A DNA stretch of 34,489 nt. It comes from Halalkalicoccus subterraneus (GTDB lineage Archaea > Halobacteriota > Halobacteria > Halobacteriales > Halalkalicoccaceae). Shown here piece by piece: positions 26,723 to 31,554 of the stretch. Below the pieces are notes generated by a model. That model saw only the letters and a program-made list of their open reading frames with translations, was not told where the DNA came from and ran no database searches. Both the position numbers and the translations under genes were made by a program. Location of the stretch: assembly GCF_003697815.1 (NCBI RefSeq), contig NZ_RDQG01000063.1:1-34489 (forward strand), read 5' to 3'. Position 1 is the first letter of the stretch; each line of letters begins with the position of its first letter.

Positions 26723-27169
26723 ATGGTTCAATCGTCAAGTCGATCGACGGTGCGAAACGACGGGGCCAGCGCGGGCCGTCTCGACCGCCCGAGCGGCGAG
26801 AGTCGGAAACAACGCGAAGGGAACGGAACCACCGGCGCGTTCGGCCAACGGACGGGGAGTTCGGACCTCCTCTTTTTCGAGGGGATTCTCCCCGAACGCG
26901 ACGGCGAAATGTTGAACGGTCTTTCAATCGACGAGCAGGCCGACGAGTGTCTGGACCGGCTGGAAGCGATGCTCGACCGGCAGGATGCGACGCTTGCGGA
27001 CGTGATGAAGGTCGAGGTCCAGTTGACCGATCTCGACGAGCGCGAGGCCGTCGACGAGGTCTATCGGGCGCGCTTCGACGGCGAGTTCCCGCCGCGAACG
27101 ACCGTCGGCGTCTGCTCGCTGCCCGGTGGAGCGGGGATCCAACTGGACGTCGTCGCCGCCGAGGAGTGA
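26723..27169 (+). CDS. RidA/YjgF-like protein in the arsenic operon, N-terminally extended and divergent
   Basis: 148 residues. Residues 50-148 follow the RidA fold: SSDLLFFEGILPERDGEML, DRQDATLADVMKVEVQLTDL, EVYRARFDGEFPPRTTVGVCSL, GIQLDVVA. The conserved Arg (Arg125, in PPRT) of imine deaminases is present, but the glutamate before the C-terminus is replaced by Asp142 and the usual SGQ is EGI. The first 45 residues are Ser/Arg/Gly-rich and have no RidA counterpart. RidA proteins hydrolyse reactive enamines/imines or act as binding proteins. Its place as promoter-proximal gene of the acr3 unit suggests an arsenic-linked role, not yet known to me. Cys131 is its only conserved-looking thiol near the core. 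Confidence 0.75.
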   Translation: MVQSSSRSTVRNDGASAGRLDRPSGESRKQREGNGTTGAFGQRTGSSDLLFFEGILPERDGEMLNGLSIDEQADECLDRLEAMLDRQDATLADVMKVEVQLTDLDEREAVDEVYRARFDGEFPPRTTVGVCSLPGGAGIQLDVVAAEE

Positions 27170-27180
27170 CCACGATACCG

Positions 27181-27267
27181 ATGAGATCGATACTGAAACA
27201 CGCACACGGCCGAGCTGAATCGAATCGAACGGCGACGACCATCCCGTCTGCGGGAGGGACGAGATGA
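27181..27267 (+). other. Small ORF linking the ridA-like gene and acr3 (28 codons)
   Basis: ATG 27181, 11 nt after the ridA-like stop, opens 28 codons whose TGA overlaps the acr3 ATG (ATGA). The peptide (MRSILKHAHGRAESNR ...) is basic, unlike haloarchaeal proteins, so it is more likely a coupling ORF or chance than a functional protein. A strong GGGAGGG Shine-Dalgarno-like tract near 27253-27259 lies inside it and could drive acr3 directly. Confidence 0.3.
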
Positions 27268-28424
27268 GTGTCGAACACGAACACGGTCCCGACTGTGACT
27301 GTGAATCCTGTGGTGACCCGCGCTCGATGGACTTCCTCGATAAGTACCTCACCGTCTGGATCTTCGGCGCGATGGCGGTCGGCGTCGGATTGGGGTTCGT
27401 TGCCCCGTCGGTGACGGGATCGATCCAGGACCTCCACCTCGTCGAGATCGGACTCGTGTTGATGATGTATCCGCCGCTGGCGAAGGCCGACTACTCGCAG
27501 CTCACGACCGTCTTTCGTAACTGGCGCGTGCTGGGGCTGAGCCTGGTCCAGAACTGGCTGATCGGGCCGACCCTGATGTTCGGGCTCGCGGTGGTCTTTT
27601 TCGGTGGACTGGTCCCGGGCCTACCGGCCCGTCCGGAGTTCTTCCTCGGGCTCGTGTTCATCGGGATGGCTCGGTGTATCGCGATGGTGCTGGTCTGGAA
27701 CGAACTCGCCGAAGGCTCACCCGAGTACGTCACCGGGCTGGTCGCGTTCAACAGCCTCTTCCAGATCATCACCTACGGCGTGTACGTCTGGTTCTTCGCG
27801 CTGTTCCTGCCCCCGATTCTGGGTATGGAATCGCTCGTTGCGGGGATCACCACCTTCGAGATCGCCCCGATGCAGGTGTTCCAGGCGATCGTCGTCTTCC
27901 TCGGGATCCCCTTCGCCGCCGGATTCCTCTCGCGGTACGTCGGGACGCGCGCCAAGAGCGAGGAGTGGTACGACGAACAGTTCGTCCCGAGGGTCGATCC
28001 TCTGACCTTGATCGCGCTGCTGTTCACCGTGATCGTGATGTTCGCAACGCAGGGCGAGAACATCGTCGCCTCACCGGGTGACGTGCTGTTGATCGCGGTG
28101 CCGCTGACGATCTACTTCGTCGTAATGTTCCTCGTGAGCTTCGGGATGGGCCGGGGGATCGGTGCGGACTACTCGACGACGACCGCGATCGGATTCACCG
28201 CGGCGTCAAACAACTTCGAACTCGCGATCGCCGTCGCGGTAGCGGTCTTCGGCGTCGGCTCCGGTGTCGCCTTCACGACCGTGGTCGGCCCGCTCATCGA
28301 GGTGCCGGTGTTGCTCGCGCTGGTCCACGTCGCGCTGTACTTCCAGCGCCGACTCGACTGGGGCGGCTCGGGAACCACGAGTCAGGGATCGACCTCGCGC
28401 CAGTCGACGGCCGACGACGACTGA
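27264..28424 (+). CDS. acr3: Arsenite efflux permease, Acr3 family
   Basis: A 386-residue membrane protein with ten predicted helices that exports arsenite. Seen: GMARCIAMVLVWNELAEG, with the conserved Cys138 (equivalent to Cys129 of Alkaliphilus Acr3), and NNFELAIAVAVAVFG, with Glu319 (equivalent to Glu305); both are required in studied homologues. An unusual soluble N-terminus carries His/Cys residues: HEHGPDCDCESCGD (CxCxxC at 11-16). GGGAGGG lies just upstream as a Shine-Dalgarno-like site, fitting a downstream operon gene. With ArsA present, transport is probably ATP-driven instead of using the proton gradient. Confidence 0.95.
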   Translation: MSVEHEHGPDCDCESCGDPRSMDFLDKYLTVWIFGAMAVGVGLGFVAPSVTGSIQDLHLVEIGLVLMMYPPLAKADYSQLTTVFRNWRVLGLSLVQNWLIGPTLMFGLAVVFFGGLVPGLPARPEFFLGLVFIGMARCIAMVLVWNELAEGSPEYVTGLVAFNSLFQIITYGVYVWFFALFLPPILGMESLVAGITTFEIAPMQVFQAIVVFLGIPFAAGFLSRYVGTRAKSEEWYDEQFVPRVDPLTLIALLFTVIVMFATQGENIVASPGDVLLIAVPLTIYFVVMFLVSFGMGRGIGADYSTTTAIGFTAASNNFELAIAVAVAVFGVGSGVAFTTVVGPLIEVPVLLALVHVALYFQRRLDWGGSGTTSQGSTSRQSTADDD

Positions 28425-28524: not shown

Positions 28525-28634
28525 ATATCAATTGTCAGTTCTATCAACCCCGCCTCCTGAGTGTCGGCGCCATATCACGCCGAATCGACTTGTTTCGCCG
28601 TCTGAAGTCAAACTATCGGGTGGGTACCGAAGTA

Positions 28635-28665
28635 CTTATTTTAGACAGCGTTCAAACGATATCGT
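28635..28665 (+). promoter_or_regulatory. arsD operon promoter with palindrome at the start point
   Basis: TATA element CTTATTTTAG (28635-28644) overlaps the AAGTACTT palindrome. Twelve bases later ACGATATCGT (28656-28665), a perfect 10-base palindrome, covers the predicted start point. A repressor bound there would block initiation. A weaker GCTACTTC lies about 25 nt before ATG 28769. Confidence 0.5.
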
Positions 28666-28768: not shown

Positions 28769-29098
28769 ATGACCGAAATAACGATCTTCGAGGAGGCGAT
28801 GTGTTGTTCCACCGGCGTCTGTGGGCCGGACCCGGACAAGGAACTGGTCTCGTTTACGCACACGGTAGACCGGATCGAGGAGGAGTTCGCCGACGTGGAG
28901 GTGTCGAGGGCGAACCTCTCGGGCGGCATCGAGCGCTTCCTCGATCACGAGACGGTCTACGACGCCGTCGAGTCCGAGGGGCCGTCGGTCCTTCCGATCA
29001 CTACCGTCGACGACGAGATCGTCGCCCGTGAGGAGTACCCCTCCTACGACCGATTGGCGAGCCTCGTCGAGGAGCGCCAGCCACAGGAGGCCCACTGA
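28769..29098 (+). CDS. arsD: Arsenite metallochaperone ArsD
   Basis: A 109-residue thioredoxin-fold protein that passes arsenite to ArsA. ITIFEEAMCCSTGVCG holds Cys12-Cys13-Cys18, the same numbering as the As(III) site of Escherichia coli ArsD. ATLSG-like (ANLSGGIERFL) and SVLPITTVDDEIV segments match the family. The later vicinal cysteine pairs of E. coli ArsD (112/113, 119/120) are absent, which is common and compatible with chaperone function. ATG 28769 restores the conserved N-terminus; longer frames upstream are Arg-rich. One base separates its stop from the arsA ATG. Confidence 0.93.
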   Translation: MTEITIFEEAMCCSTGVCGPDPDKELVSFTHTVDRIEEEFADVEVSRANLSGGIERFLDHETVYDAVESEGPSVLPITTVDDEIVAREEYPSYDRLASLVEERQPQEAH

Positions 29099-29099
29099 G

Positions 29100-31010
29100 A
29101 TGAGTGGGGCATCCCGAGACGTCGTCGAACCGACGGGCGAGGACACCGAGTTCGTCTTCTTCAGCGGGAAGGGTGGCGTCGGCAAGAGCACGGTGAGCTG
29201 TGCGACCGCCGCGTGGCTCGCCGACGAGGGCTACGACACCCTGCTGGTCACGACCGATCCCGCGCCGAACCTTTCCGATGTCTTCGGCCAGCGGATCGGC
29301 CACGCGATCACGCCGATCGAGACCGTCGAGAACCTCTCCGCGATCGAGATCGATCCCGACGAGGCCGCCGCGGAGTACCGACAGCGCACCCTCGAACCGA
29401 TGCGTCAACTCCTCGACGACGAACAGATCGAGACGATCGAGGAGCAACTCGACAGCCCGTGTGTCGACGAGATCGCCGCCTTCGACCGGTTCATCGAGTT
29501 CATGGACGATCCGGAGTACGACGTGGTGGTGTTCGACACCGCGCCCACGGGGCATACGATCCGCCTCATGGAGCTTCCGACCGGCTGGAACGAAGAGTTA
29601 GAGAACGGCGGGGCGACCTGCATTGGCCCGGCGGCCTCGATGCAGGACCAAAAGGAGCGCTATGAGGCGGCCATCGAGACGCTTTCCGACGGTGAGCGCA
29701 CGTCGTTCGTGTTCGTCGGCCGGCCCGAGGAGGCCGCGATCAACGAGATCGAGCGCAGTTCCGAGAACCTCGCCGAACTGGGGATCGGGACCGATCTCGT
29801 CGTCGTCAACGGCTACCTGCCCGAGACGGTCTGTCAGGATCCCTTCTTCGAGGGCAAACGCGAGGACGAACAGGCGGTCCTCGAGGAGGTCAGCTCGACG
29901 TTTGCCGACCAGCCGGTGGCGACGTACCCGCTCCAGCCCGGCGAGATCACGGGGACGGACCTGCTCGCGGACGTGGCGGGGGTCCTCTACGAGGGCGAGG
30001 AGGCGACAGTCGAGGTCGACGCCGACACCAAAGCGACGGACACGACCGAACCGCTCCACGCGGGGACGGACACGGACGCCGTCATGGACCGACTCCGTCC
30101 CGAGGAGGACACCCGATACCTGTTCTTCACCGGCAAGGGTGGCGTCGGCAAGAGCACGATGGCGGCGACGACCGCGACGGCGCTCGCCGACGAGGGCTAC
30201 GAGACGCTGATCGTCACCACCGACCCGGCCTCACACCTCCAGGACGTGTTCGGGACGGCGGTCGGACACGACCCGACCCCGGTCGGGATCGACGGGCTCG
30301 AGGCCGCCCGGATCGACCAGGAGAGGGCGCTGTCCGAGTACAAAGAGGGGATGCTCGCACAGGTCGAGGCCTCCTTCGAGGGCGACGAGGACACCGACGT
30401 CGAAGCGGTCAAAGCACAGGTCGCGGAGGAACTCGACAGCCCGTGTGCCGAGGAGATGGCGGCCCTCGAGAAGTTCGTGGGCTACTTCGACGATCCCGAC
30501 TACGACGTCGTGGTGTTCGACACCGCGCCGACGGGCCACACCCTCAGGCTGCTCGAACTGCCCTCCGAGTGGAAGGGCTTCATGGATCTCGGATCGCTGA
30601 CCAAGGAGGCCTCGGGATCGGGCGCGAAGTACGACCGGGTCATCGAGACGATGCGCGACCCGGAGCGGAGCTCGTTCGTCTTCGTGATGTACCCCGAGTA
30701 CACGCCGATGATGGAGGCCTACCGCGCCGCCGAGGACCTGCGCGAACAGGTCGGCATCGAGACGGCGCTTGTCGCGGTCAACTACCTGCTCCCCGACGAG
30801 TACGGCGACAACGCCTTCTTCGAGAGCCGGCGCGAGCAACAGCGCGAGTATCTCGCGGAGATCCGTGAGCGCTTCTCGGTACCGGCGATGCTCGCACCGC
30901 TTCGCGAGAGCGAGCCGACGGGCGTCGAGGAGCTCCGACGCCTCGGCGATGACGTCCTCGCCACGGCGGAATCGACACGGAACGACCAGCCGACGATCGA
31001 GATCCAATGA
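29100..31010 (+). CDS. arsA: Arsenite-stimulated ATPase ArsA, tandem double domain
   Basis: 636 residues with two homologous ATPase halves, the architecture of bacterial pump ArsA. Walker A GKGGVGKST occurs at 23-31 and 345-353, and the ArsA-specific DTAPTGHT occurs in both halves. Candidate metal-binding cysteines are Cys121 (LDSPCVDE), Cys174 (GATCIG) and Cys449 (LDSPCAEE), matching E. coli Cys113, 172 and 422. These features separate it from single-domain Get3-like tail-anchored protein ATPases. It receives As(III) from ArsD and energises Acr3. ATG 29100 was chosen (the frame is open further back inside arsD). Its TGA overlaps the hcsL ATG. Confidence 0.96.
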   Translation: MSGASRDVVEPTGEDTEFVFFSGKGGVGKSTVSCATAAWLADEGYDTLLVTTDPAPNLSDVFGQRIGHAITPIETVENLSAIEIDPDEAAAEYRQRTLEPMRQLLDDEQIETIEEQLDSPCVDEIAAFDRFIEFMDDPEYDVVVFDTAPTGHTIRLMELPTGWNEELENGGATCIGPAASMQDQKERYEAAIETLSDGERTSFVFVGRPEEAAINEIERSSENLAELGIGTDLVVVNGYLPETVCQDPFFEGKREDEQAVLEEVSSTFADQPVATYPLQPGEITGTDLLADVAGVLYEGEEATVEVDADTKATDTTEPLHAGTDTDAVMDRLRPEEDTRYLFFTGKGGVGKSTMAATTATALADEGYETLIVTTDPASHLQDVFGTAVGHDPTPVGIDGLEAARIDQERALSEYKEGMLAQVEASFEGDEDTDVEAVKAQVAEELDSPCAEEMAALEKFVGYFDDPDYDVVVFDTAPTGHTLRLLELPSEWKGFMDLGSLTKEASGSGAKYDRVIETMRDPERSSFVFVMYPEYTPMMEAYRAAEDLREQVGIETALVAVNYLLPDEYGDNAFFESRREQQREYLAEIRERFSVPAMLAPLRESEPTGVEELRRLGDDVLATAESTRNDQPTIEIQ

Positions 31011-31375
31011 GTGAATCCACGACCACCGACGCCGACGTCGAGACGCGATTGACCGAGTTCGTCGACGCGATCGGCGAGTCAGAGCGATACGAGCGGTTCG
31101 TCGCGAGCCAACAGCGATTGGAGAACGACGAGGAGGCCCGGCAACTGTTGGGCGAGTTCCGACGAAAACGACGCCAGCTTCAGAAGAACGGCTTCGACGG
31201 GGAGACGATGGCGGAGCTACGCGAGCTTCAAGAGGAGATGGACGACGACGAGACCATCAACGAACTGCGCGAGGCCGAAGCGGCGCTGATCGACCTGCTC
31301 GATGAGACGAACGACGTCGTCAGTGAGCGGATCGGTGAGGAGTTCGCCCGGAGCACCGGAGGTGGGTGCTGTTGA
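31007..31375 (+). CDS. hcsL: Halo-CC-star protein HcsL: YlbF-like helical protein ending in Cys-Cys
   Basis: A 122-residue, almost wholly helical acidic protein that matches the YlbF/YmcA-type pattern (ETRLTEFVDAIGESERY, RLENDEEARQLLGEFRRKR, then LRELQEEMDDDETINEL). It ends ARSTGGGCC, with the two cysteines as the last residues (121-122) and no other cysteine. I recognise it as the haloarchaeal family named HcsL for its C-terminal CC before the stop. It is coupled to arsA by an ATGA overlap. In Bacillus, YlbF/YmcA partners bind an Fe-S cluster through C-terminal cysteines; by analogy the CC tail may hold arsenite or a cluster (inference). Function not established to my knowledge. Confidence 0.85.
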   Translation: MSESTTTDADVETRLTEFVDAIGESERYERFVASQQRLENDEEARQLLGEFRRKRRQLQKNGFDGETMAELRELQEEMDDDETINELREAEAALIDLLDETNDVVSERIGEEFARSTGGGCC

Positions 31376-31554
31376 GCGCGACCGACTCCGAGGTGCTTTC
31401 GGCGGCCGAGCGGTTGGCCGACGCGCTCGCGGAGACGAAGACTCACTCGGACTCCGAGGAGTTCGAGGCGCTCCTGACCGAGTGCAACGAGGGAATCGAA
31501 CGCGAACTCGGTATCGACTACGGCGCGGTCTGTGGCGACGACGGCTGTTGCTAA
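31372..31554 (+). CDS. hcsS: Halo-CC-star protein HcsS: small protein ending in Cys-Cys
   Basis: About 60 residues: a helical N-terminal part (SEVLSAAERLADALAETKTH, EEFEALLTECNEGIE) similar to the first helices of YlbF proteins, then GIDYGAVCGDDGCC with the CC as last residues. Cysteines are at 38, 54, 59 and 60 when counted from TTG 31372. That TTG overlaps the hcsL TGA (TTGA), mirroring the ATGA couplings before it; GTG 31366 is the alternative start. Paired with HcsL, so the two probably form a complex sharing clustered terminal thiols. Role in arsenic handling is inferred from the operon. Confidence 0.82.
   Translation: MSATDSEVLSAAERLADALAETKTHSDSEEFEALLTECNEGIERELGIDYGAVCGDDGCC

Follow-up and report, generated by a model that had tools for sequence, protein, structure and literature searches.

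The arsenic cluster and its gene junctions

The window, i.e. the whole stretch of 34,489 nucleotides from Halalkalicoccus subterraneus analysed here, carries a plus-strand arsenic cluster in which an arsenate reductase candidate of the low-molecular-weight-phosphatase type, an ArsR-type regulator, a RidA-family gene and acr3 follow one another; after a gap of 344 bp between acr3 and arsD, the cluster continues with arsD, arsA, hcsL and hcsS (Table 1). The earlier note had described the last four genes as consecutive, with arsD and arsA spaced by one base (29098 versus 29100) and the arsA stop overlapping the hcsL start in an ATGA (31007 versus 31010), all of which the coordinates bear out. The arsA-hcsL overlap, as ATGA or GTGA, recurs in 58 of the 58 loci read. 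The TTGA said to join hcsL and hcsS is present in the sequence, but since it arises from the last Cys codon of hcsL (TGT) and the stop codon TGA, it does not by itself speak for a start at TTG. In relatives, e.g. NRC-1, NCBI places the hcsS start at the equivalent of the GTG, six bases earlier than the TTG, and the true start may be either GTG 31366 or TTG 31372. Both products indeed terminate in Cys-Cys (HcsL in STGGGCC, HcsS in VCGDDGCC); in HcsS, however, this description counted only two of four conserved cysteines and missed C40 and C56. Family matches and conservation rule out that hcsL and hcsS are chance open reading frames or a frame artefact.

The RidA-family gene (26723-27169) adjoins acr3 and the ars genes, as is also the case in Halobacterium sp. 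BOL4-2 (L124, 362-2954). About 120 bp upstream of arsD, at 28630-28660, lies the AT-rich stretch tacttattttagac, which by eye is archaeal TATA-like and suggests that arsDA-hcsLS could have a promoter of its own.

Table 1. Features of the arsenic cluster in the window
Feature	Position	Strand	Remarks
acr3, arsenite permease	27264..28424	+	upstream of arsD; TIGR00832 373 bits
arsD	28769..29098	+	109 aa, As(III) metallochaperone, C12/C13/C18 present; NF033727 110.5 bits
arsA	29100..31010	+	636 aa, double-domain ATPase, haloarchaeal type; NF041417 (ArsA_halo) 1163 bits, above curated cut-off
arsA C121, C174, C449 (metalloid site equivalents)	within 29100..31010	+	all present
hcsL	31007..31375	+	122 aa, predicted YlbF/YmcA fold; NF041416 149.8 bits (curated cut-off 140; profile 1-113 covered; ends GGGCC), PF06133 E 1.1e-19, RicF/RicA by profile and fold
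HcsL Cys121-Cys122 codons, terminal	31367..31372	+	invariant, 54/54 distinct sequences
hcsS	31366..31554	+	60-62 aa, start GTG 31366 or TTG 31372; NF041415 88.3 bits (curated cut-off 55; ends DGCC)
hcsS product	31366..31554	+	predicted helical hairpin and Cys tail; model pLDDT 82
HcsS Cys40 codon (from GTG 31366)	31483..31485	+	conserved 57/59; in helix 2 of model
HcsS Cys56 codon (from GTG 31366)	31531..31533	+	conserved 58/59
HcsS Cys61-Cys62 codons, terminal	31546..31551	+	53/59 and 57/59

Family assignment and fold

The earlier note regarded the pair as the best candidate for an undescribed arsenic-handling component. NCBI, however, already names both families and annotates the genes: NF041416 and NF041415 carry the NCBIfam label 'halo-CC-star protein', a name without assigned function, and HcsL and HcsS of the window score above the respective curated cut-offs. 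The consecutive accessions NF041415, NF041416 and NF041417 suggest that curators examined this locus. NCBI labels hcsL and hcsS on many haloarchaeal plasmids, and in four of four records inspected they lie beside arsD-arsA; on pNRC100 of NRC-1 they sit between arsA and the arsR2-arsM genes. Literature searches on HcsL or HcsS function returned no paper. The window proteins do not differ from the NCBIfam families, which are here extended beyond haloarchaea. The HcsL-HcsS observation is real and reproducible; the families themselves are known, and new here are the linkage survey, the cysteine conservation, the RicF/RicA kinship, the absence of RicT, the recurrence in another class and the GCC tail of a separate YlbF protein.

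HcsL matches the Pfam family PF06133 (Com_YlbF) with 71.3 bits against a gathering score of 23.9, and a profile built from 11 HcsL sequences retrieves the solved structures of RicF (6prk_A, 2.6e-7) and RicA/YmcA (2pih, 6prh). The profile alignment pairs the YmcA segment HTISNQVTNEIITSTGG with the part of HcsL whose sequence in the window is NDVVSERIGEEFARSTGG. The AlphaFold2 model of HcsL (43 sequences, pLDDT 85) shows five helices, with the Cys-Cys in a low-confidence tail; Foldseek returns 6prk_A as first match of this model (TM 0.76/0.80), 6prk_A and 2pih_A both with probability 1.00. Profile and predicted structure together show HcsL to be a helical protein of predicted YlbF/YmcA fold. Of all the clues to the mechanism, this kinship to YlbF/RicA-RicF, missed in the earlier note, is the most informative.

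The model of HcsS is a helical hairpin whose tail is loose. HcsS matches no Pfam family, PF06133 included, and its model finds no match in the PDB by Foldseek; hhalign relates its C-terminal half to the corresponding part of HcsL and of a haloarchaeal YlbF paralog (P 93-95%). Neither HcsL nor HcsS matches the ArsD families PF06953 and NF033727. HcsS and ArsD are alike in that both are small, belong to the same operon and combine a vicinal Cys pair with a further Cys (CC-x4-C in ArsD, C-x4-CC in HcsS of the window). Fold and sequence are nevertheless unrelated, the spacing varies from 4 to 6 in HcsS relatives, and ArsD itself is present in the operon.

Closer parallels are found in RicA-RicF (YmcA-YlbF) of the B. 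subtilis RicAFT complex, which share the HcsL fold, the two-partner arrangement and cysteines on flexible C-terminal tails. Of the two [4Fe-4S] clusters in the Bacillus RicAFT complex, one is ligated by RicF C134 and C146 near the C terminus, the C-terminal RicA C141 and RicT C167 (PMC6751060). In contrast to RicA-RicF, HcsS is half-length, the last two residues of HcsL are invariably Cys, RicT is absent, and the genes adjoin arsA, whereas RicA-RicF act on RNase Y. RicT (PSP1 domain) was found in none of 21 genomes, the present one included, with a positive B. subtilis control, which rules out that the pair belongs to a RicAFT complex.

Linkage to arsD-arsA

The earlier note had proposed a survey of hcsL/hcsS co-occurrence with ars genes. 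We ran it on 292 genomes of the class Halobacteria, of which 51 hold HcsL and 52 hold ArsA_halo above the profile cut-offs; HcsS was found in 56 and ArsD in 52. Two further HcsL were counted as low-scoring or split copies (G049 and G246); in G246 an interruption of about 1.1 kb splits hcsL, with arsA and hcsS seemingly intact (L110, 6875-8398). Both hcsL and hcsS occur in 51 of the 52 genomes with a full-length haloarchaeal ArsA, and all 53 HcsL genomes contain such an ArsA, whole or partial: in the two that lie outside the ArsA set, a partial ArsA is found at the same place (at contig ends in G015, truncated in G193). The Fisher p value of about 1e-53 is overstated, as the genomes are related and plasmid-borne cassettes are mobile. 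A pair located mostly away from ars genes, which would have spoken against a shared role, is not what the 292 genomes display. G129 is the sole genome with a full-length ArsA and no pair, and ArsD is missing from it as well. In G129 (L111, 2659-7644) and in Natronorubrum bangense (L225, 1962-14560), the neighbourhood of arsA includes a gene for a molybdoenzyme of the DMSO-reductase superfamily.

The order arsD-arsA-hcsL-hcsS is constant in the fetched loci, and the pair belongs to the arsDA module in 51 of 52 ArsA genomes. The permease gene acr3 lies near the cassette in no more than about 10 of the loci that were read, hence the pair tracks arsD-arsA and not the permease. Orphan hcsS genes occur in four genomes (G060, G068, G248, G008). 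A full-length haloarchaeal ArsA is missing from all four, and in G068, G248 and G008 the gene is altered or truncated; the orphans thus resemble what a lost cassette leaves behind and do not look like a second context. A search for a viral or phage origin of the pair found none, and the matches to HcsL comprised haloarchaea only, with no homologues on bacterial plasmids. Judged by comparative genomics, arsD-arsA-hcsL-hcsS appears to form one functional module.

Conservation of the cysteines

Besides the tie to ArsD-ArsA, the conservation of the thiols supports part of the interpretation in the earlier note. The terminal Cys-Cys of HcsL is retained in 57 of 57 intact genes (54 of 54 distinct sequences), constitutes its only conserved cysteines and is more conserved than the remainder of the protein. 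HcsS possesses four conserved cysteines, retained in 57, 58, 53 and 57 of 59 distinct sequences. ArsA keeps C34, C121, C174, C245 and C449 in 56 of 56 sequences, of which C121, C174 and C449 match, by motif position, the metalloid-site cysteines of the plasmid R773 ArsA; ArsD likewise keeps C12, C13 and C18 in 56 of 56. As ArsA and ArsD thus retain their own As-binding cysteines, the pair is no stand-in for missing As ligands, and a replacement of lost As sites is ruled out.

ArsD binds As(III) at a CC-x4-C motif, and MerA hands on Hg(II) via a mobile C-terminal vicinal Cys pair; both parallels speak for a relay by thiols. The step from terminal Cys-Cys to arsenic binding taken in the earlier note is nevertheless weak, because a housekeeping YlbF protein shares the tail. 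In all 21 cases checked, the C terminus of this haloarchaeal YlbF paralog is GCC followed by two or three residues, and 14 of the 21 have dph2 nearby (L002, 1492-1887; L205-L224); the paralog is present in most haloarchaea, with or without arsA. With HcsL it shares the GCC tail and the family of its fold (P=99% in hhalign), and it differs in the residues that follow the Cys-Cys, in forming a separate clade and in its independence of arsA. Since a paralog unrelated to ars genes carries GCC, the Cys-Cys tail is not arsenic-specific. The dph2 gene encodes a diphthamide-synthesis enzyme with a [4Fe-4S] cluster, and the paralog may be an archaeal partner of the Dph2 enzyme.

Occurrence outside the class

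In another class of the same phylum, G362 and G467 carry arsR-arsD-CMD-arsA-hcsL-hcsS-acr3. Here HcsL ends in GGCC and HcsS in CAPAGGCDCGGKC, the HcsS tail corresponding to C-x5-C-x-C-x3-C. The gene between arsD and arsA in both of these methanogen-class cassettes belongs to the carboxymuconolactone-decarboxylase (CMD) family (L190, 8241-8570; L202, 4972-5346). In G485 and G508, two genomes of one genus of that class, hcsL-hcsS occurs as two tandem pairs away from any ars gene, and neither genome encodes an ArsA_halo, which indicates that HcsL-HcsS is a unit by itself. Their HcsL ends in GGCY or GGCR, so that the terminal Cys-Cys is lost and the tails are reduced; a non-arsenic role of HcsL-HcsS may be found here. 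The tandem pairs lie at L203 6390-7713 and L204 6773-8096, and in L203 a gene for an [Fe-S] flavodoxin-like protein follows. In the tree, all these HcsL split from the YlbF paralogs with support 98/93, a value that carries a long-branch warning for the paralog side. Within this clade, an intact terminal Cys pair coincides with linkage to ArsA, on a sample that includes very few unlinked pairs.

Discussion

HcsL-HcsS is probably a working part of the pump and not a chance neighbour. The reading that we tentatively favour is that of a RicAF-like, thiol-tailed partner of ArsD-ArsA which most likely relays As(III). By analogy with RicA-RicF, HcsL and HcsS would form a heteromer, in which HcsS, related to HcsL through its C-terminal half, is the short helical partner. 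The flexible tails, with two cysteines from HcsL and four from HcsS, could meet as a shared thiolate site that would hold As(III) or Sb(III) and, as its most likely job, pass it on in the ArsD-ArsA-permease pathway, perhaps while the pair docks to ArsA. Such a site would supplement those by which ArsD and ArsA bind As, instead of taking their place. Worded more broadly and held with slightly more reserve, the pair could be an obligatory, so far unrecognised component of archaeal ArsA pumps, in which a repurposed RicAF-type scaffold presents the tail cysteines either as an inter-subunit As(III) relay or as an As-sensing Fe-S site.

The relay reading is favoured by the near-absolute linkage, the constant order and overlap, the recurrence in G362 and G467, and the invariant Cys-Cys of HcsL together with the four HcsS cysteines. 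Moreover, the one genome whose ArsA comes without the pair has no ArsD either, and the unlinked pairs of G485 and G508 lack the HcsL Cys-Cys. The RicF/RicA fold kinship, the C-terminal homology of HcsL and HcsS and the tails, which are modelled as loose, are consistent with it. Against it stand the GCC tail of a YlbF paralog outside ars loci, the complete As sites already present in ArsD and ArsA, the G129 ArsA that does without the pair, and the closest characterised relatives, which ligate an Fe-S cluster. To our knowledge, bacterial ArsDAB functions without a pair like HcsL-HcsS.

These characterised relatives lead to the main rival, which we consider rather unlikely, even though the sequence data do not separate it from an As(III) relay: the tails of HcsL-HcsS would ligate an Fe-S cluster, as in RicA/RicF, and the pair would serve ArsA as an escort, or as a redox or As-sensitive switch, instead of carrying arsenite. 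The kinship extends to the tails, whose C-terminal cysteines co-ligate a [4Fe-4S] cluster in RicA/RicF, and the HcsS tail of G362 and G467 recalls a ferredoxin-like or RicF Cys cluster (RicF C138-x5-C144-x-C146) (PMC6751060). RicA-RicF moreover serve as delivery pair for RicT (PMC10470536). However, RicAF holds no cluster without RicT, which the 21 genomes lack, and vicinal cysteines seldom ligate one cluster (PMC6751060); in addition, arsenic and oxygen stress target Fe-S centres. On the side of a cluster is also the position of the GCC-tailed paralog by the gene of a [4Fe-4S] enzyme, dph2.

Linkage to ArsA but not to a particular permease, along with the translational overlap with arsA, would also fit a factor that helps the halophilic ArsA to assemble, to stay stable or to dock to the membrane, and whose own cysteines form only a structural or disulphide clamp. 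As pairs exist without ArsA in G485 and G508 and the HcsL Cys-Cys outdoes the rest of the protein in conservation, we regard such a factor as unlikely. A still less probable role is the regulation of ars mRNA or transcription, as exerted by YlbF/YmcA via RNase Y in Bacillus. This is the best-known function of the family and is compatible with the ArsA-free pairs of one genus, but RicT is absent from the relatives (21 genomes), and the pair is linked to arsD-arsA, with regulator and permease genes that differ between loci. Furthermore, we know of no RNase Y from haloarchaea. Finally, many cassettes reside on plasmids, where hitch-hiking is common, and the pair might be a passenger on mobile ars cassettes with no arsenic-handling role. 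Fixed order and overlap, invariant cysteines, retention across families and in a second class, and decay of the pair once the cassette is lost render this highly improbable.

ArsA is a textbook metalloid-pump ATPase. If the archaeal enzyme needs two further proteins, these have so far been left out by work on haloarchaeal arsenic resistance; for the model strain NRC-1, a review covers only arsADRC and arsR2M and remarks that the pump partner of ArsA is unknown there (PMC3600143). If our reading is true, the YlbF/RicAF fold would gain a role outside RNA processing, which would suggest that cysteine-tailed YlbF proteins may be a general soft-metal or Fe-S device.
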